A stretch of DNA of 64,000 nt from Halorubrum sp. DM2 (GTDB taxonomy: Archaea > Halobacteriota > Halobacteria > Halobacteriales > Haloferacaceae): positions 2,741,773-2,805,772 of the forward strand of contig NZ_LR594487.1 of the NCBI RefSeq assembly GCF_901686465.1, written 5' to 3'. The notes beneath the pieces are model-generated. The model saw only the letters and a list, made by a program, of their open reading frames with translations, did not search any database and was not told the DNA's origin. Numbering within the stretch: the stretch's first letter is position 1; the number at the start of each line of letters is the position of its first letter. Shown here piece by piece: positions 1 through 54,830 of the stretch. The translations under genes were made by a program, and so were the position numbers.

Positions 1-1058
1 CCGGTCGGCACGTCTCCGTCGGCGATCCCATCGTGGGGACGACGCTGCCGGACGGCTCGCGTGCCGAGCTCTCCCTCGGCGAGGAGGTGACGCCGCGCGG
101 CTCGGCGTTCACGATCCGTCAGTACGCCGAGGACCCGTTCACGCCGGTCGATCTCGTCGAGTACGGGACCTTCTCCGTCGAGCAGATGGCGTACTTCTGG
201 CTCTGTATCGAGCACAACAAGAGTCTCATCTTCGCCGGCGGTACCGCCTCCGGGAAGACCACGTCGATGAACGCGGTCTCGATGTTCATTCCGCCGCGCG
301 CGAAGGTTCTCTCGATCGAGGACACCCGCGAGCTCTCCTTATACCACGACAACTGGCTCTCCTCGATCACCCGCGAGCGCCGCTACGAGGGGGCCGATAT
401 CGACATGTACGACCTGCTGCGCTCCGCGCTGCGCCACCGCCCCGAGTACATCATCGTCGGCGAGGTCCGCGGGGAAGAGGCTATCACCCTGTTTCAGGCG
501 ATGAACACGGGACACACGACGTTCTCGACGATGCACGCCGACTCGATCGAGACGGTGATCAACCGGCTGGAGAACGAGCCGATCAACGTGCCGCGCGCGA
601 TGGTCCAGTCGCTCGATCTCCTCTCGGTCCAGACGATGACTCGCTCCGGCGAGCAGCGCGTCCGCCGCGCGAAGGCGATCGGCGAGATCGGCGGCATCGA
701 CCAGCGGACCGGCGAGCTCGACTACTCGTCGGCGTTCGAGTGGGACCCCGACTCTGACACGTTCCAGCGGAACGACTCGTCGCTGTTGGATGAGATCGCC
801 GACGAGCGCGGCTGGTCCCGCTCGGAGTTGCTCCGCGAGGTCCGCCGCCGCGAGCGCTTCCTCGAACTGCTTTCCGCGCTCGGCATCGACGACTACCGCA
901 CGTTCACCGCCCTCGTCAACGAGTACTACGCCGACGCCGACCGCGTGATGGACAAACTCGACGAGCGGGTCGCCGCGGCCGACGGCGTCGACGCCGACGC
1001 CCTCACGGACGAGGAAAACGCTGCCACCGCGGGGGACCCGGCGGCCACGGACCGATGA
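1..1058 (+). CDS. Type II/IV secretion ATPase, PilB/GspE-like (5' end outside window)
   Basis: C-terminal part of a secretion/pilus ATPase that powers assembly of type IV pilus-like structures at the inner face of the membrane. The frame stays open upstream to base 3 without a clear start, so the gene begins before the window. Visible motifs are the Walker A loop GGTASGKTT (about base 235), the Asp-box-like IEDTREL and the Walker B-like IIVGEVRG, followed by a His box with MNTGHTTFSTMHA. The stop overlaps the start of the next gene by ATGA, so the two are translationally coupled, as PilB-PilC pairs are in haloarchaea. Which Pil paralogue it is cannot be told from this fragment. Confidence 0.93.
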   Translation, partial: GRHVSVGDPIVGTTLPDGSRAELSLGEEVTPRGSAFTIRQYAEDPFTPVDLVEYGTFSVEQMAYFWLCIEHNKSLIFAGGTASGKTTSMNAVSMFIPPRAKVLSIEDTRELSLYHDNWLSSITRERRYEGADIDMYDLLRSALRHRPEYIIVGEVRGEEAITLFQAMNTGHTTFSTMHADSIETVINRLENEPINVPRAMVQSLDLLSVQTMTRSGEQRVRRAKAIGEIGGIDQRTGELDYSSAFEWDPDSDTFQRNDSSLLDEIADERGWSRSELLREVRRRERFLELLSALGIDDYRTFTALVNEYYADADRVMDKLDERVAAADGVDADALTDEENAATAGDPAATDR

Positions 1059-3262
1059 TCGAGTACGTCCCCCTCGTCGCGGCGGTCGCGGCCTGCCTCG
1101 CGCTCGCGCTCCCGCTCGTCGACGACCGGGCCGACCTGTTCGTCACCCGCGTCGCGCTGACGGCCTTCGGCGACTACGTCGGGGAGAACGAGACGCGGCG
1201 GCGGGCCCAGCGCGACCGGATGCGCGCGGCCCACGTCGCCGGGACGACGCACCGGGTGTACGCCTCGCGCACGCTGCTGTACGCCGCCGTTCTCGGCGTC
1301 GCCGGCAGCGTCATCGGCGTGTACGGTGCCGCGGGACTGCTCGCCGCGCTCGACGTCGGCGAGGCGGCGATCCGCGGGGCGCTCCCGGCCCAGTTCGGGT
1401 TCGTCGCGGTCGTCGCGCGGCTCGCCGACCTCGGTCTCGGGAGGCTGTTCGTCCTGCTCGCGGTCGTCTCCGCGACGGTCGGGTCGGGACTGGCGCTCGG
1501 CGCGTACGTCGCCCGGTGGCAGCTGCTCGACCAGCGCGCACACGCGAGGGCGGCTGAGATCGACGCCACCCTACCCCGGACCGTCGCGTTCATGTACGCG
1601 CTCTCGCGCTCGGGGATGGCGTTCCCGCGGGTGATGGACACGCTCGCGGAGAACGAGTCGGTGTACGGCGAGGCCGCCACGGAGCTGTCGGTCGCGGTCC
1701 GCGACATGAACGCCTTCGGGACCGACTCGCTCACCGCGCTCCAGCGCATCTCCCGGCGGACGCCCAGCGACGACTTAGCGGACTTCTCGGAGAACCTCGC
1801 GTCCGTCCTCGGGACCGGGCAGTCGGTGTCGGCGTTCCTCAACGACCAGTACGAGCGGTATCAGGCGGAGGCGGAGGCGAAACAGGAGCAGTACTTAGAG
1901 TTGCTCTCGACGTTCGCCGAGGCGTACGTGACCGCGCTGGTCGCCGGGCCGCTCTTTTTCATCACCATCCTCGTCGTCATCGGCCTCGTCTTACAGGACA
2001 CGATGCCGCTCTTACGCGTCGTCGTCTACGTCGGTGTCCCGCTCGCCACCTTCGGGTTCGTCGTCTACGTCGACAGCGTGACGCAGGGGATCGGCGGCAC
2101 CGAGACGGTCGCGGAGTCGTCGCTGTCGGACCCGGACACTCCGTCCGTCTCGGGGGTGCGCCACGCGACGGACGAGTCCGGAGACCGGGGCGGATCCCCG
2201 CGGTTCGACGGGGGGACGGCGAGCGGACGCGGGCCGGACGGGACCACCTCGGACGGGGCCGCCCGCGACGGTCCCGGCGCGGACCGGTGGGCGGCGAGCC
2301 GCGAACGCCTCCGGATCTACGACCGGCTCCGCGGGGCGCGTCAGCTGATCGCGTCGCCGGCCGAGACCGTGCTGGCCTCGCCGCGGACCGTGTTCCTCGC
2401 GGCCGTCCCGATCGCGGTCGTCGGGCTGCTGATCTTCGCGTTCCCGATAACGCTCGGGACGCCGGTGGAGATGGTCGGACAGGTCGACGGGCCGCTCGTC
2501 GCCGCGACCACGTTCGTCCTCGCGGCGTACGCGGTCGCCTACGAGTTCGGCAAGCGGCGGGTCCGGCGCGTCGAGTCCGCGGTCCCCGACTTCCTCGACC
2601 GACTCGCCAGCGTCAACGAGGCGGGGACCGCCGTGGTCGGCAGCGTCCGTCGCGTCGCGGACTCGAACTTGGAGGCGCTGACCGCGGACCTCCGGCGGAC
2701 GCGCCGCGACGTGGACTGGGGGGCGGACGTCTCGACCGCGCTGCGACGGCTCGAACGGCGGGTCCGGTCGCCGATGATGTCCCGGGCGGTCGCGCTCGTC
2801 ACGAACGCGATCCGGGCGAGCGGCGACGTCGGGCCGGTCCTGCGGATCGCCGCCGACGAGTCGCGCGCGACCTGGTCGCTCCGGCGCGAGCGCCGGCAGG
2901 TGATGTTGACCTACCTCATCGTCATTTACATCTCCTTTTTCGTCTTCATCGGGATCATCGCGGCGCTGTCGGTGTCGTTCATCCCCGCTATCGAGTCGGC
3001 GGGCGTTCCGGGAACGGGCGGCGGCCTCCCGGACGCCGGAAGCGGCGCTCCCTCCGGTCCGTCCGGGATCACGGACGGGATCGGCGACATCGACGTGGAC
3101 GCCTACGAGCAGCTGTTCTTCCACGCCGCGGCGATCCAGGCGACCTGCTCCGGGCTCGTCGCCGGCCAACTCGGGGAGGGGTCGGTGCGCGACGGCGTGA
3201 AACACGTCGTGGTACTGCTCGCGGTCACGCTCGTCACGTTCGTCGCGATCGGACTGGTGTGA
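1055..3262 (+). CDS. Type II secretion system F / PilC (TadC)-like membrane protein
   Basis: 735-residue polytopic membrane protein, partner of the upstream ATPase and likely the membrane platform of a type IV pilus or related secretion machine. It has two T2SSF-like halves (about residues 165-340 and 500-660), each with a helical cytoplasmic block followed by hydrophobic helices. A low-complexity Gly/Asp/Ser-rich linker (about residues 345-420) separates them. A final hydrophobic helix ends the protein. The double-length form is usual for haloarchaeal PilC/TadC proteins. Start ATG overlaps the ATPase stop by 4 bases. Confidence 0.9.
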   Translation: MIEYVPLVAAVAACLALALPLVDDRADLFVTRVALTAFGDYVGENETRRRAQRDRMRAAHVAGTTHRVYASRTLLYAAVLGVAGSVIGVYGAAGLLAALDVGEAAIRGALPAQFGFVAVVARLADLGLGRLFVLLAVVSATVGSGLALGAYVARWQLLDQRAHARAAEIDATLPRTVAFMYALSRSGMAFPRVMDTLAENESVYGEAATELSVAVRDMNAFGTDSLTALQRISRRTPSDDLADFSENLASVLGTGQSVSAFLNDQYERYQAEAEAKQEQYLELLSTFAEAYVTALVAGPLFFITILVVIGLVLQDTMPLLRVVVYVGVPLATFGFVVYVDSVTQGIGGTETVAESSLSDPDTPSVSGVRHATDESGDRGGSPRFDGGTASGRGPDGTTSDGAARDGPGADRWAASRERLRIYDRLRGARQLIASPAETVLASPRTVFLAAVPIAVVGLLIFAFPITLGTPVEMVGQVDGPLVAATTFVLAAYAVAYEFGKRRVRRVESAVPDFLDRLASVNEAGTAVVGSVRRVADSNLEALTADLRRTRRDVDWGADVSTALRRLERRVRSPMMSRAVALVTNAIRASGDVGPVLRIAADESRATWSLRRERRQVMLTYLIVIYISFFVFIGIIAALSVSFIPAIESAGVPGTGGGLPDAGSGAPSGPSGITDGIGDIDVDAYEQLFFHAAAIQATCSGLVAGQLGEGSVRDGVKHVVVLLAVTLVTFVAIGLV

Positions 3263-3322
3263 TCCGGCCGTCGAGCGACGCCCGGCCGCACGAGCTAAAC
3301 GGGTCGCCGCCGAGCGGGACGT

Positions 3323-4027
3323 ATGGACTCGGAATCGACCGGCGACTCGGAACCGACCGAAGACCCGGCGTCGATCGGTGGCCCGACGTCGACCGGCGAC
3401 CCGCAGTCGACCTACGACCGCATCGCGAGCCACTTCTCGAAGACCCGCGAGTACGCCTGGCCCGAGGTCGAGTCGTTCCTGGAGGGCCGGTCGGCGACCC
3501 GCGCGCTCGACGTCGGCTGCGGGAACGGTCGGCACACCGAGGCGCTCGTGTCGCACGCGGACACCGCGGTCGGCGTCGACCTCAGCCGCGGCCTGCTCGA
3601 CGAGGCGCTCTCCCGCGCCCGCGACCGGGGGTTCGCGGACGCGGCCGCGTTCGTCCACGGGGACGCCGCGTCGCTGCCGGTGCGCGACGACGCGGTCGAC
3701 CTCGCGGCCTACGTCGCCACGCTCCACCACCTCTCGCCCCGGGCCGCGCGCGTCGAGAGCCTGAACGAACTGGCTCGGGTCCTCGCGCCGGGCGGGGTCG
3801 CGCTCGTCAGCGCGTGGAGCACGGCCCACGACCGGTTCGACCGCGACGAGGGGTTCGACACGACCGTTGACTGGACGCTCCCGGGCGGCGAGACTGTCCC
3901 CCGGTACTATCACATCTACTCTCCCGCTGAGTTCGAGTCAGATCTCGCCGCGAGCGACCTCGAACTCCGTCACACGCGGGTTTCGAGCGGAAACTGTTAC
4001 GCGGTGGTGTCGGCGGTGAGCCGCTAA
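3323..4027 (+). CDS. SAM-dependent methyltransferase, Trm9-like
   Basis: Class I methyltransferase of 234 residues. The SAM-binding motif I is ALDVGCGNG (about residues 67-75), with an acidic motif II (VGVDLS) and a post-motif region LAAYVATLHHL. The segment YDRIASHFSKTR and the following WP resemble the start of the Trm9/ABH8 methyltransferase domain, which in eukaryotes methylates wobble uridine side chains in tRNA. A tRNA role here is therefore an inference from family resemblance. The first 30 residues are a Ser/Thr/Asp/Pro-rich repeat-like tail that is probably disordered. It stands alone between pilus genes and the transducer gene. Confidence 0.8.
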   Translation: MDSESTGDSEPTEDPASIGGPTSTGDPQSTYDRIASHFSKTREYAWPEVESFLEGRSATRALDVGCGNGRHTEALVSHADTAVGVDLSRGLLDEALSRARDRGFADAAAFVHGDAASLPVRDDAVDLAAYVATLHHLSPRAARVESLNELARVLAPGGVALVSAWSTAHDRFDRDEGFDTTVDWTLPGGETVPRYYHIYSPAEFESDLAASDLELRHTRVSSGNCYAVVSAVSR

Positions 4028-4055
4028 TTATCACCGAGGATACTGACGGGGGTGG

Positions 4056-4063
4056 ATTAAAGA
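4056..4063 (+). promoter_or_regulatory. TATA-like promoter of the transducer gene
   Basis: The TTAAAG box lies about 26-31 bases before the ATG at 4088, the spacing of a leaderless haloarchaeal transcript. It favours the second in-frame ATG (4088) over the first (4082). Confidence 0.5.
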
Positions 4064-4087
4064 GTCCCTGTCGAGCGCCTGATGATA

Positions 4088-6496
4088 ATGGCCGACACCC
4101 TTCTCGAACGGATCTTGCGTCGGGTCGCGCCCGACGCGGTGGCCCGGAGCTACCTCGCGAAGTTCCTCGTCGCTCTCGTTGTCGTCGTGCTCGCGATCGG
4201 TGCCGTCGGAGCCGTCACGTACGCGGAGACGACGGAGCAGCTCGAATCGAGCGCGCAGGACGACTACACCGCCGTCGCGGAGCTGAGCGCGACCGACCTT
4301 GACGCTTGGGCGACCGAGCGCCGCACCGCGATTCGGAACGTCGCCGACAACGACATCTTCTCTCAGGACGCAGACCGGGTGGACGGATACCTCGCGTCGC
4401 ACCTCTCGCGGGCCGACGAGTCGGTCGCCGCTCTCCACTTCGTCGACCCGGCCGAGGGGACCGTCCTCGCTACCACCGACGAGGGCGACGGCGGCGAGAC
4501 GGTGGCCTCGAAGGCGTGGTTTGGCGACGACATCGTGTACGGAGACGAGGTGTTCAGGAGCCAGCCGTACCGGGTCGACGGCGAACGCCGGATCGCGTAC
4601 GTCACCTCGACGCCGATCGGCGACTACCTCGTGATGGAGGTGTCGCTCGCCCCCGTCACGGCCGACCTCCGGCAGCCGACGGAGGGCGCGTTCACCACCA
4701 TCGTCGAGCCGAACGGCGAGATCACGGCGAGCGACAACGACTACGCCGCCGGTTTCCGCTACGACAACGAGATCCGGTCGACACTGTTCGACGAGGAGGG
4801 GGCCGTCGGCTTCCTCCCGTCGGCGACGTTCGGCTTCGCGGACGGCGGCGAGTACCTCGTCGCGTACGCGCCCCTCGAAACCGAGGACTGGCTGGTCGCG
4901 GTCCACGTCCCCCTCTCCGAGGCGTACGCGCTCTCCGGGATGATCGGACGGAACCTCCTCCTCATCGTCGGCGTCGCGGTCGTCGGGCTGGGCCTGCTCG
5001 GCGGGACGCTCGGCCGCGGCACCGTCGTCGAGCTGAACCGGCTCCGGTCGCGCGCGTCGGCGCTCGCCGACGGCGACCTCGACGTCGAGTTCGACACGGA
5101 ACGGCGCGACGAGTTCGGCGACCTCTCCGGGGCGTTCGCGACGATGCGCGACTCGCTGCGCGAGCAGATTCAGTCGGCCGAGACGCAGCGCGAGCGGGCC
5201 GAGGCGGCGAAGGCCGAGAGCGACGCGTTCGCCGAGCGGCTGGAGTCGCGCGCGAACGACTTCGGCGAGACGATGGCGGCCTGCGCCGAGGGCGACCTCA
5301 CCGCCCGGCTCCGCGCCGACGCTGACGACCCCGAGGCGCTCCGTTCCATCGCCACGGAGTTCAACGACGCGATGGACGAGTTGGAGGCCGCGATCGCCGA
5401 GGTCGACTCCTTCGCGGTCGAGGTGGCTGACCGGAGCGACGCCGTCACGGACGGGACCGACGAGGCCGCGGCCGCCGGCCGGGAGACCAGCGACGCGGTC
5501 GACGAGATCTCCGCCGGCGCGGAGCGACAGAGCCGCCAGCTGGCCGAGGTGGCCGGCGAGATGGAGGACATGTCCGCGACCGTCGAGGAGGTCGCCGCCT
5601 CCGCCGATCAGGTCGCGACCACCTCCCGGCAGGCCGACTCGCTCACCGAGGAGGGCCGCGAGGCGGCGGCCGACGCCGTCGAGGAACTCCACGGGATCGA
5701 GGCGCGCTCGGAGTCCGCTGCGGAGACGGTAGAGCGGCTCGAAGCCGAGATGGCGGAGGTCGACGAGATCGTCGAGACGATCTCGGAGATCGCGGACCAG
5801 ACCAACCTGCTCGCGCTGAACGCCTCGATCGAGGCCGCCCGCGCGGGCGAGAGCGGCTCCGGCTTCGCGGTCGTCGCGGAGGAGGTGAAGTCGCTCGCGG
5901 AGGAGACGCAGGAGTCCGCCGCCGAGGTGGAGTCGCTAATCGGTAGCCTCCGCGAGCGGACCGACGAGAGCGTCGACGAGATGGCCGCGATCCGTGAGGG
6001 GGTCGACGACGGCGTCGAGGTTGTCGAGGACGCGGAGGACGCCCTCGAAGAGGTCTCAGAGCGCGTGAGCGAGGCCGACGACGGCGTTCAGGAGATATCC
6101 GGCGCGATGGACGCGCAGGCGTCGTCGGTCAGCGAGGTCACCGGCGCGGTCGACGACCTCGCGGGCGTGAGCCAGCAGACCACCGCCGAGGCGACCACCG
6201 TCGCCTCAGCGGCAGAGGAGCAGGCCGCCACGCTCGGCGAAGTCTCCGAGCAGGCGCACGACCTCCACGAGCGCGCCCGCGACCTGCGAGAGATGACCGA
6301 GGGCTTCGAGGTCGACGCCGACGGAGCCGCTGTCGGTGGCGACGACTCGACCGAGACGACGGACGCGGCCGAGTCGGCGTTCTCCTTCGGCGCTGACGAG
6401 GTGTCCGCGGACGCCGCTCCCGCCAGCACGGACGGCGGCACCGCCGACGAGACGGTCCGAGCGAGCGATCCGGACGCAGACGGCTCGGAGAGCTGA
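4088..6496 (+). CDS. Membrane-bound methyl-accepting chemotaxis transducer (Htr)
   Basis: 802-residue transducer that senses an extracellular signal and controls CheA. Order: short cytoplasmic N-terminus, membrane helix about 25-46, a Cache-like extracellular sensor (about 47-285), a second helix (about 287-308), HAMP, a second HAMP-like region, then a long coiled-coil signalling domain. The hairpin tip carries [21 protein letters not shown], the conserved MCP signature. The C-terminus is acidic and Ser/Thr-rich. An in-frame ATG two codons upstream (4082) is possible, but the TATA spacing favours 4088. The ligand cannot be read from the sequence. No che genes are nearby. Confidence 0.93.
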
Positions 6497-53314: not shown

Positions 53315-54043
53315 TCAGGCGATGTCGCGGCTCGTGTCGACGGCGACCTCGTCGGTGAGCTTCAGCTTCAGCGGCTCCTCGAGGGCCGCGCCGCCGCGGA
53401 ACTTGGAGACGACGAGCCGGTTCGCGATCTCGGTCCCGGTGACGGTGGTGCGGAGGTCGAACACGACGTCCGCGACCTGCTCCGTGACCCGCCTCGTTTG
53501 AGGGTCCTCGCCGCCGCGGAGCGCGTGGAGCACTGCCACCCCGCCGGCGTCGTCGACGCGGGACCGGACCCCGTCGAGGAACTCGGCGTACGCCGACGGG
53601 GCGGTCTCCGCCTCCAGCGGCTCCACGGAGTCGACGATCAGCGTCCCGCTCTCGGGGGGATCCTCGGTCAGTGACGCCGCCTCGTCGAGGTCCCCGGGGT
53701 CGTCCGCGGCCTCGACGCTCGTTTCCTCGTCCCCGTCGAGGCCGAGCGCCGCCTCCACCGCACCGGTCGACCGGACGGTCGTCAGGTACCGACACCGCCG
53801 ACTCCTCGCGAACCGGTTCAAAATAAGTTCCGACTGGCTGTCGGGGTTCGCCTTCAACACGACGACGCTACCGCTCGGGAGCCCTCCGCCGAACTGTCGG
53901 TCCAGCACCGAGATCCCAGTCGGGAGCGCCTCCATACGATCGCTGCCGCCCGTGGACGCTTGGGTCTGTCGATGACGGCTCTCTCGGCCGCCGACGGCCC
54001 CGCTGTCCGCCGTTCCGGGGCCGCCCGCCTCCGCGGTCCTCAC
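53315..54043 (-). CDS. KaiC/RecA-like HTR-like protein with degenerate Walker A
   Basis: 242 residues from GTG 54043, which overlaps the upstream stop (GTGA). KaiC-like start LPTGISVLDRQFGGGLPSGS, but the P-loop position reads VVVLKANPDSQSELIL with no GKT/S, so ATP binding is unlikely. Then SGTLIVDSVEPLEAE (Walker B-like), the C-terminus with NRLVVSKFRGG. Haloarchaea have many such HTR-like/DUF7504 proteins of unknown role. The N-terminal 35 residues are low complexity; ATG 53935 is a possible shorter start. Confidence 0.75.
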   Translation of the reverse strand: MRTAEAGGPGTADSGAVGGRESRHRQTQASTGGSDRMEALPTGISVLDRQFGGGLPSGSVVVLKANPDSQSELILNRFARSRRCRYLTTVRSTGAVEAALGLDGDEETSVEAADDPGDLDEAASLTEDPPESGTLIVDSVEPLEAETAPSAYAEFLDGVRSRVDDAGGVAVLHALRGGEDPQTRRVTEQVADVVFDLRTTVTGTEIANRLVVSKFRGGAALEEPLKLKLTDEVAVDTSRDIA

Positions 54044-54738
54044 GCGATCTTCCACTCCGTCGCCGCCGCCGTCCCGCCGAGCCGCCGGGCGAGGTCGTCG
54101 TACGCCTCCCGGACCGCCGGGTCAGAGAGCGGAGCGCCCCCGCCGTCCGGTATCTCGCCGAGGACGGGGCAGCCGAGCAGCGTCGCCACCTCCTCCGGGA
54201 CGCTCGTCTCGCCGATCGCGACCGCGCCGAGCGGCGGGCAGTCGAGACGCCGCGCTATCGCCGCCGTCTTCGCGGCGTCGCGGAGCGCGGCGCGCCGGAG
54301 CGGCGTCGCGATGAGCGAACGGTCCGCCGCCCGCAGGGGCGCGGCCACGTCGGGCGACGCGCCGGCCGGACAGTCGAGCAACACCGGCGCGGAACCGGGC
54401 GTCGCGCCGTCCAACGCGTCGAACGTCGCGTTCGCGTCGACGGACCGCGGAGCCTCCGGGGCCGCGAGGACCGTCGGCCCGGAGCGGTCGGGACGCACCA
54501 GGTCGGTCCCGCGAGCGGCGTCGAGGACCGTCCGCGCGTCTCTGTCGACCGCTCCCGATTCCGGTCCGGCCACCATGGAGTCGACCGCGGTCTCCGCGGC
54601 CAGCCGCGCGAGGTTCGGCAGGTCCCAGTCGGCGTCGGCCGCGACCACCGGAGCGCCGCGCCGCGAGAGCGCGCGGGCGAGCCCGAGGGTAGTCGTCGTC
54701 TTTCCGCTTCCGCCCTTGCCGCCGGCGACGGCTATCAC
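54040..54738 (-). CDS. MinD/ParA-like ATPase
   Basis: 232 residues from GTG 54738. Deviant Walker A GGKGGSGKTTTTLGLARALS at residues 6-25, then VVAADADWDLPNLARLA and VLLDCPAGASPDVAAPLRAA (Walker B), TPLRRAALRDAAKTAAIARR, typical of MinD-type ATPases that sit on membranes or locate cargo. Shorter than MinD and without the amphipathic C-terminal helix of canonical MinD. A TATA-like CCTTATATCC lies 21-30 bases upstream, giving a leaderless start. Its stop overlaps the HTR-like start. Confidence 0.88.
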   Translation of the reverse strand: MIAVAGGKGGSGKTTTTLGLARALSRRGAPVVAADADWDLPNLARLAAETAVDSMVAGPESGAVDRDARTVLDAARGTDLVRPDRSGPTVLAAPEAPRSVDANATFDALDGATPGSAPVLLDCPAGASPDVAAPLRAADRSLIATPLRRAALRDAAKTAAIARRLDCPPLGAVAIGETSVPEEVATLLGCPVLGEIPDGGGAPLSDPAVREAYDDLARRLGGTAAATEWKIA

Positions 54739-54830
54739 GGGGAGGCTGCGTCGCTATCGGATATAAGGTGTCGGGAGAATCGCCGGGCGCGACGGACGTT
54801 CGGTCGCGACGCCGGGCATCGACCCGCCGG

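Follow-up and report, generated by a model that had tools for sequence, protein, structure and literature searches.

In the archaellum motor, ArlH (FlaH), a protein of the KaiC fold, operates alongside a PilC-type platform and an ATPase of the PilB type. According to one account, ArlH has Walker motifs, autophosphorylates and is termed unique to archaella, other type IV filaments being said to assemble without an ArlH homolog (PMC12024892); another traces it to an unknown source (PMC9087265). KaiC-like ATPases have been reported near archaeal type IV pilus loci, and in Methanomicrobia some of these families might share a transcript with VirB11/TadC (Makarova et al. 2016, PMC4858521). Among the MinD-type ATPases of Haloferax volcanii, MinD2 and its downstream neighbor HVO_0596 are a published pair, for which mutants K16A and D117A are described (Patro et al. 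2024, PMC11588486), and two studies assign MinD2 and MinD4 to placement (PMC11588486, PMC11621097). According to Brown et al. 2024 (PMC11621097), MinD1 to MinD3 lacked both a described function and a MinE-like partner. Here we analyzed a stretch of 64,000 nucleotides from the haloarchaeon Halorubrum sp. DM2 (contig NZ_LR594487.1, positions 2,741,773 to 2,805,772; hereafter the window), in which a gene for a MinD-type ATPase (54040..54738, minus strand) is followed by a gene for a KaiC-fold pseudo-ATPase of the family DUF7125 (53315..53935, minus strand).

The reading that we prefer, with a probability of about 0.55, is that DUF7125 is an ATPase-dead accessory subunit with the KaiC/ArlH fold that belongs to a type IV pilus-type assembly machine, made up of one haloarchaeal clade of PilB (clade b) and its PilC, and that the adjoining or fused ATPase, of the MinD3 type, places or licenses this machine. 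The computed basis consists of the dead active site, the KaiC fold, the linkage of the two genes, their natural fusions, the pilB-pilC operons of distant relatives and the joint loss with clade b PilB; physical binding, positioning as the output and the role of the tail are what we infer beyond it.

The DUF7125 protein of the window has 206 amino acids from its preferred start, ATG 53935, and matches Pfam DUF7125 (PF23442) with 179.3 bits (6.9e-53; curated cut-off 29.1), the matches to DUF7504 (29.6 bits) and KaiC (PF06745, 27.7 bits) being barely over cut-off. In a hidden Markov model alignment with PDB entry 2w0m, the motif ANPDSQSEL (53825..53851, minus strand; haloarchaeal consensus P-x-S-Q-x-E-L) occupies the Walker A place and aligns to the KaiC motif GxPGTGKT, given as GEPGTGKT for KaiC-like proteins, with Ser at the position of the Walker A Lys and Glu at that of the Thr. 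Conservation was examined in a set of 192 distinct sequences, identical rows being dropped; 142 are stand-alone copies, 43 are fused to MinD and 7 belong to further classes of the same phylum. The Walker A Lys occurs in none of these 192 sequences, while Glu36, the position after the lost Lys, and the Walker B Asp occur in every one of them. In the KaiC catalytic pair, Arg takes the place of the second Glu in 188 sequences, and the first position varies (mostly Val or Ile in single copies, often Glu or Asp in fused ones); 190 sequences retain the C-terminal KxR, the other two having gaps there. The polar residues at the former active site show little or no variation among haloarchaeal copies. 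Judged from these alignments, DUF7125 is ATPase-dead throughout the family, and the constancy of both the missing Lys and Glu36 is not that of chance decay.

The AlphaFold2 model of the window protein (predicted local distance difference test score, pLDDT, 87.9; predicted template modeling score 0.87) has the KaiC fold, with a best match at Z 22.2 (root-mean-square deviation 2.7, 198 residues aligned), followed by SSO2452 (Z 21.5) and FlaH of M. jannaschii (4wia, Z 20.1). An earlier note on this DNA, made from the sequence alone, had proposed that the second gene encodes a KaiC-like protein without the Walker A Lys, and thus a pseudo-ATPase partner of the first; alignment and model both support this. 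The motif DTSRDI near the C-terminus (DTSRDIA in the window, 53318..53338, minus strand) is kept in 142/142 stand-alone copies and in 5/43 fused copies. Since residues 196-199 and 203-206 have pLDDT values below 50, this conserved tail is left unplaced in the monomer model, as may be expected of a docking peptide. DUF7125 is also the more conserved member of the pair, with a mean column identity of 68% (42 rows) compared to 36% for the MinD partner (37 rows); the nearest named loci over DUF7125 are those of H. tebenquichense (93%) and H. trapanicum (91%).

The first gene encodes 232 amino acids from a GTG start. Its deviant Walker A (GGKGGSGKTTTT, 54688..54723, minus strand) is intact, as the earlier note had stated, with the signature Lys of KGGxGKT present, and its Walker B reads DCPAG. 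The protein exceeds the Pfam cut-offs of CbiA (53.1 bits; cut-off 25.4) and ParA PF10609 (cut-off 27.1), which makes it a member of the superfamily, and it stays under the minD_arch TIGR01969 cut-off (72 versus 201.75 bits), which places it outside that subfamily. The closest solved chains are the archaeal MinD structures 1hyq, 1g3q and 1ion, and then FleN (5j1j). Against the MinD profile A2 it scores 237.6 bits, the next paralog in the genome reaching 122. The string GGKGGxGKTT is present in 152/161 linked MinD loci; the scored frame of the remaining 9 did not show it, some of these loci being masked or truncated at a contig end. The MinD C-termini, inspected by eye for a membrane-targeting helix, vary in length and sequence among relatives.

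The pair resembles MinD2/HVO_0596 in that a MinD gene is accompanied by a conserved neighbor, with which it overlaps in the Haloferax genome examined. However, both the MinD paralog and the partner differ. In that genome (G243), K16 and a Lys-Asp distance of 101 are found in the MinD whose overlapping neighbor encodes an unrelated protein of 194 amino acids and not DUF7125, whereas the DUF7125-linked Haloferax MinD has its Lys at position 13 and a Lys-Asp distance of 90 (83 in some species). It is to the latter that the window MinD is nearest (39.9%, 3e-24). On the basis of residue numbering and gene spacing we therefore rejected the idea that the pair is the known MinD2/HVO_0596 operon of H. 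volcanii, which we regard as hardly conceivable provided that H. volcanii shares the gene order of its genus. MinD4 was called by K16 and a frame of 663 codons, and MinD1 by its distance of 102 kb from MinD4. Because MinD1, MinD2 and MinD4 are thus assigned to other Haloferax genes, the DUF7125-linked MinD would by elimination be MinD3 (HVO_1634), an orthology that is drawn from gene spacing in a Haloferax genome other than that of H. volcanii. According to PMC11621097, the quadruple minD deletion shows the motility of the minD2/minD4 double deletion, and MinD3 is therefore unlikely to serve swimming. The Haloferax MinD2 gene and the downstream gene for the 194-amino-acid protein, presumably of the HVO_0596 type, form a separate coupled pair (L243:1229-2667, minus strand).

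MinD lies directly upstream of DUF7125 in 88/101 collected loci, a non-random set made up of the window copy, the 30 best-scoring loci, 40 picked to span genera and 30 of the genus itself, and in 73/80 named loci; the MinD match is under 150 bits in 2 of these 88 and 3 of these 73 loci (masked, truncated at a contig end or incomplete in another way). Moreover, among 292 genomes of the class Halobacteria (at least 90% complete, 76 genera), at least 43 have the two fused into a single gene, each fusion being verified with both profiles. The earlier note had held that its idea would be refuted if the genes were unlinked in most relatives. In the collected loci they are mostly linked, which supports a conserved MinD-type ATPase with a pseudo-ATPase partner.

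The fusions differ in their tails. All five fusions in genomes with a sole DUF7125 match (G057, G087, G137, G246 and G271) keep DTSRDI, whereas it is lost from all 38 fusions whose genome has at least two matches (Fisher test p-value = 1e-6, uncorrected for kinship and with match counts that may include split pieces). For a tree of 129 rows, 20 near-duplicates were removed manually, together with two repeated fusion rows and 75 of the 80 named loci. In the tree as drawn, all 43 fused domains are nested among the rows of one family (f4), and the fusion label needs two changes. The fusion copies in two other families (f3 and f7) were probably acquired by transfer, as judged from the tree. We read the evolutionary order as leading from an adjacent gene via a fused sole copy to a fused extra copy.

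The exceptions to linkage were surveyed in 26 genomes, picked as having an unlinked DUF7125, as lacking DUF7125 or as controls. Of the 11 genomes with an unlinked DUF7125, three have a fusion elsewhere, one has an unlinked MinD3 and seven have no MinD3 (at most 138 bits). Among the 10 genomes without an over-cut-off DUF7125, MinD3 is kept in six and missing in four, with G010 and G220 entered as split matches. In G014, G129, G010 and G220, DUF7125 has gone from between MinD3 and a conserved gene for an FKBP isomerase; loci with this gap and a retained MinD3 are L185, L186, L187 and L182. The coupling of MinD and DUF7125 is strong, not obligate. We also considered that the tail might be a MinD-docking peptide. 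This idea was weakened by the stand-alone copies of MinD3-less genomes, which keep DTSRDI, and by seven distant relatives that keep the tail exactly or nearly and in which the MinD3 profile matched nothing in the 3.5-3.6 kb examined. It looks as if the tail is needed once per genome and not for MinD as such.

These distant relatives point to the type IV pilus. Outside the class, 13 genomes have one long DUF7125 match among the matches listed, and in seven of them the DUF7125-like gene lies within 4 kb of pilC (T2SSF), adjoining it in six. T2SSE and T2SSF were both confirmed with Pfam at three loci (L259, L258 and L255), with a PilB3_C match of 50 bits at the first. The seven aligned DUF7125-like proteins from outside the class have no Walker A Lys and have Pro31, Glu36, Arg55, Asp102 and KxR in common; their tails read DTSRDI in five cases and DTSKDI and DTSVYI in one case each. 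Comparable operons occur in two divergent families of the window's order. At the first locus (L282), PilB (1049-3151), PilC (3190-5265) and DUF7125 (5268-6041) follow each other, with the tail ETSREIA; at the second (L283), a MinD nearest to MinD4 is followed by PilB, PilC and DUF7125, with the tail DTSRDIA. As the MinD4-like gene stands directly before pilB-pilC-DUF7125 on a single strand (L283:529-7881), this locus represents a second link between a MinD and a pilus. At one locus outside the class (L253:1391-2879, plus strand), a KaiC protein (Pfam KaiC, 119.5 bits) adjoins a DUF7125-like gene on the same strand, possibly as a pair of an active and a dead KaiC.

Clade b comprises 11 of 25 PilB rows (support 100/99) and is characterized by open frames of greater length, whose N- and C-terminal parts are unmatched. 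As extra N- and C-terminal parts are described for the PilB4 ATPase HVO_1160 of H. volcanii by Makarova et al. 2016 (PMC4858521), clade b is probably the PilB4 type of these authors. With 605 and 585 bits against the clade b profile, the PilB proteins of L282 and L283 score above all other PilBs (at most 499 bits; 12 genomes compared). In the sample of 292 genomes, clade b PilB is missing from 10/10 genomes without an over-cut-off DUF7125; in the 282 genomes with DUF7125 it is missing from one (G234), broken by stops in one (G215) and split over about 6 kb in one (G208). This joint loss is significant both across genomes (Fisher test p-value = 3e-16) and at the genus level (hypergeometric p-value = 2e-8), and it is spread over 7 genera and 4 families. 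No such tie was found to ArlH, as 17/19 genomes without an over-cut-off ArlH retain DUF7125 (Fisher test p-value = 0.24), and on this count an archaellum-specific adaptor, acting as an ArlH decoy, was rejected. The interrupted clade b PilB of G215 (L284; G215:C5:348500-354500) contains stops or frame changes, which could reflect either recent decay or an assembly error, and DUF7125 matches well in this genome. In G208, clade b PilB matches as two halves on one strand with about 6.4 kb between them, which would suit a gene split by a large insert (G208:C4:52211-60407).

Several observations weigh against the pilus reading. No pilC was present in the 3.6-5.8 kb examined around the DUF7125-like gene in 6/13 genomes outside the class, adjoining pilB-pilC genes were found at only two haloarchaeal loci (L282 and L283), and in the genome of the window about 550 kb separate DUF7125 from the clade b pilB-pilC. 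Two genomes that were counted as lacking clade b (G174 and G066) carry a diverged PilB of unsure placement, and G215 and G208 retain DUF7125 despite a damaged clade b PilB. MinD3 occurs without DUF7125 or clade b in six genomes, and DUF7125 occurs with clade b and without MinD3 in seven. Lastly, Patro et al. (PMC11588486) found no phenotype for HVO_0596, the partner of the different protein MinD2; conserved neighbors may not matter in the laboratory. MinD3 is best read as an optional, gene-coupled regulator of the pilus machine. In such an arrangement, MinD3 would cycle between an ATP-bound dimer and a monomer, and DUF7125 would be a non-hydrolyzing adaptor that docks on the PilB/PilC motor as ArlH does on ArlI/ArlJ, perhaps via its conserved tail and the retained KxR edge, and that presents the pilus motor to MinD3.

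Placement is not the only output that can be envisaged. MinD3 and DUF7125 could act like FleN/FlhG and restrict the number of pilus motors that are built or working, without any patterning in space. The fact that MinD3 can be lost while DUF7125 and clade b PilB stay suits an optional regulator of this kind, and FleN/MinD ATPases are predicted to be general type IV pilus regulators by Makarova et al. 2016 (PMC4858521). The MinD2 and MinD4 proteins of H. volcanii are, however, described as placement factors (PMC11588486, PMC11621097). The present data fit number control as well as placement, and we consider number control an unlikely, though serious, alternative. Considerably less probable is that the pair is unrelated to pili and represents a general module for signaling or the cytoskeleton, whose losses would fall together with those of PilB because genome reduction or an ecological shift removes both. 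The survival of MinD3 in six genomes without clade b PilB would agree with this, as would the small size (2.3-2.7 Mb) of 5/10 loss genomes. Yet the other five (G014, G124, G174, G183 and G276) measure 3.3-4.3 Mb and are also without both genes, and the pilB-pilC-DUF7125 operons are independent of profile statistics.

The near-invariance of the polar residues at the old site of haloarchaeal copies exceeds what a scaffold needs, and DUF7125 might thus be a re-invented binding site, in which a pocket of P-x-S-Q-x-E and Arg55 senses another ligand and MinD3 reads its state. The same invariance would equally fit an interface locked by salt bridges, and the seven distant relatives mostly lack Ser33, Gln34, Glu108, His137 and Arg148, which makes a ligand sensor as improbable in our view as a module unrelated to pili. 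The earlier note had suggested a spatial cargo or sensory switch. Through the distant operons and the joint loss, the cargo can now be narrowed to a candidate, the type IV pilus machine, while the sensory switch is kept only as the rival just described.

If the pilus reading is taken one step further, DUF7125 could be the missing ArlH counterpart of the non-archaellar type IV pilus machine, a protein that lost ATP binding, kept its place at the motor and in haloarchaea became wired to MinD, up to fusion. We put this forward tentatively, at somewhat less than even odds. Besides the shared fold, ArlH is the best NCBIfam match of DUF7125, though a weak one, as its 27.7 bits are far under the ArlH equivalog cut-off of 215. 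Unlike ArlH, DUF7125 has no Walker A. Compared to KaiC and the archaeal KaiC-like ATPases, including the type IV pilus-linked arCOG01171-01175, DUF7125 has the fold, the Walker B Asp and KxR, but neither Walker A nor the second catalytic Glu. FlhG/FleN, MipZ and the orphan ParA/MinD positioning ATPases are similar to the present pair in that an ATPase with a deviant Walker A is gene-linked to its adaptor; to our knowledge, none of them is paired or fused with a KaiC-fold pseudo-ATPase. Among the papers listed in our literature search, with supplementary tables and most subscription papers beyond reach, we found no report of the dead DUF7125 family, its fusion to MinD3 or the joint loss with a PilB clade; the statement of the earlier note that the role of such a pair is undescribed holds as far as this search reached. 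The present analysis offers a named partner and a named candidate machine for one H. volcanii MinD of undescribed function, and the natural fusions show that MinD and DUF7125 can act as one polypeptide. Both the origin of ArlH and the function of MinD3 become testable in this way in a genetically tractable archaeon. If DUF7125 is indeed the counterpart of ArlH, haloarchaea would have coupled a MinD-type pattern-former straight to the motor of a pilus; ArlH would no longer be exclusive to the archaellum, and its origin would have to be sought among KaiC proteins associated with pili.

The two genes had been noted to overlap by GTGA. This overlap (54040-54043) is present if DUF7125 starts at GTG 54043; an alternative in-frame GTG at 54055 would produce an overlap of 16 nucleotides. 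The region 53936..54043 (minus strand) would then be an N-terminal extension, and it is a spacer if DUF7125 starts at ATG 53935, which lies 104 nucleotides past the MinD stop at the domain start common across genera. An in-frame NTGA was found in 57/70 linked loci listed by locus number as the Halorubrum clade, with a few non-Halorubrum labels among them, as compared to 1/91 other linked loci, in 66 of which an in-frame stop rules out the overlap. GTGA as a conserved form of coupling was therefore rejected beyond the Halorubrum clade, and the overlap is not conserved across haloarchaea.

Within the would-be extension, substitutions are evenly distributed over the codon positions (586/662/634), compared to 51/49/260 in the domain (14 distinct sequences). 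In 86 of 140 distinct upstream stretches, A+T content peaks at −35 to −30, −29 to −24 and −12 to −10 before the domain-start codon, a pattern that we take to be that of a haloarchaeal leaderless promoter; the other 54 are those that carry the Halorubrum GACAG block. The peaks persist (0.61, 0.60 and 0.57 versus 0.44-0.46) in the 31 of these 86 stretches in which the MinD stop lies outside −45 to −15, a few of the 31 having this stop at −12 to −10. In Halorubrum, a GC-rich block is found at equal distance from the domain start. In the window it is the conserved block CATCGACAGACCCAAGC (53958..53974, minus strand), at −39 to −23 from ATG 53935, putatively the GC-rich equivalent of the transcription factor B recognition element and TATA box in the leaderless promoter of other genera. 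DUF7125 thus probably has its own promoter, with a TATA box that often overlaps the MinD stop, and because a promoter of the leaderless type precedes it, ATG 53935 appears to be the likelier start. Two observations speak for coding in the extension: single-base codon changes there are synonymous in 334/863 cases in the coding frame versus 231/880 and 243/787 in the other frames, and several of the spacer lengths found within the genus preserve one reading frame. A longer, GTG-started form of DUF7125 is possible. A TATA-like box about 22-30 nucleotides upstream of the MinD start (54760..54768, minus strand) would fit a leaderless transcript for MinD as well.

The window opens within another PilB-PilC pair (1-3262, plus strand), in which a PilB3_C match at about 753-995 is followed by a T2SSF open reading frame at 1055..3262. 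This PilB scores as PilB3-like and does not belong to the clade that tracks DUF7125.
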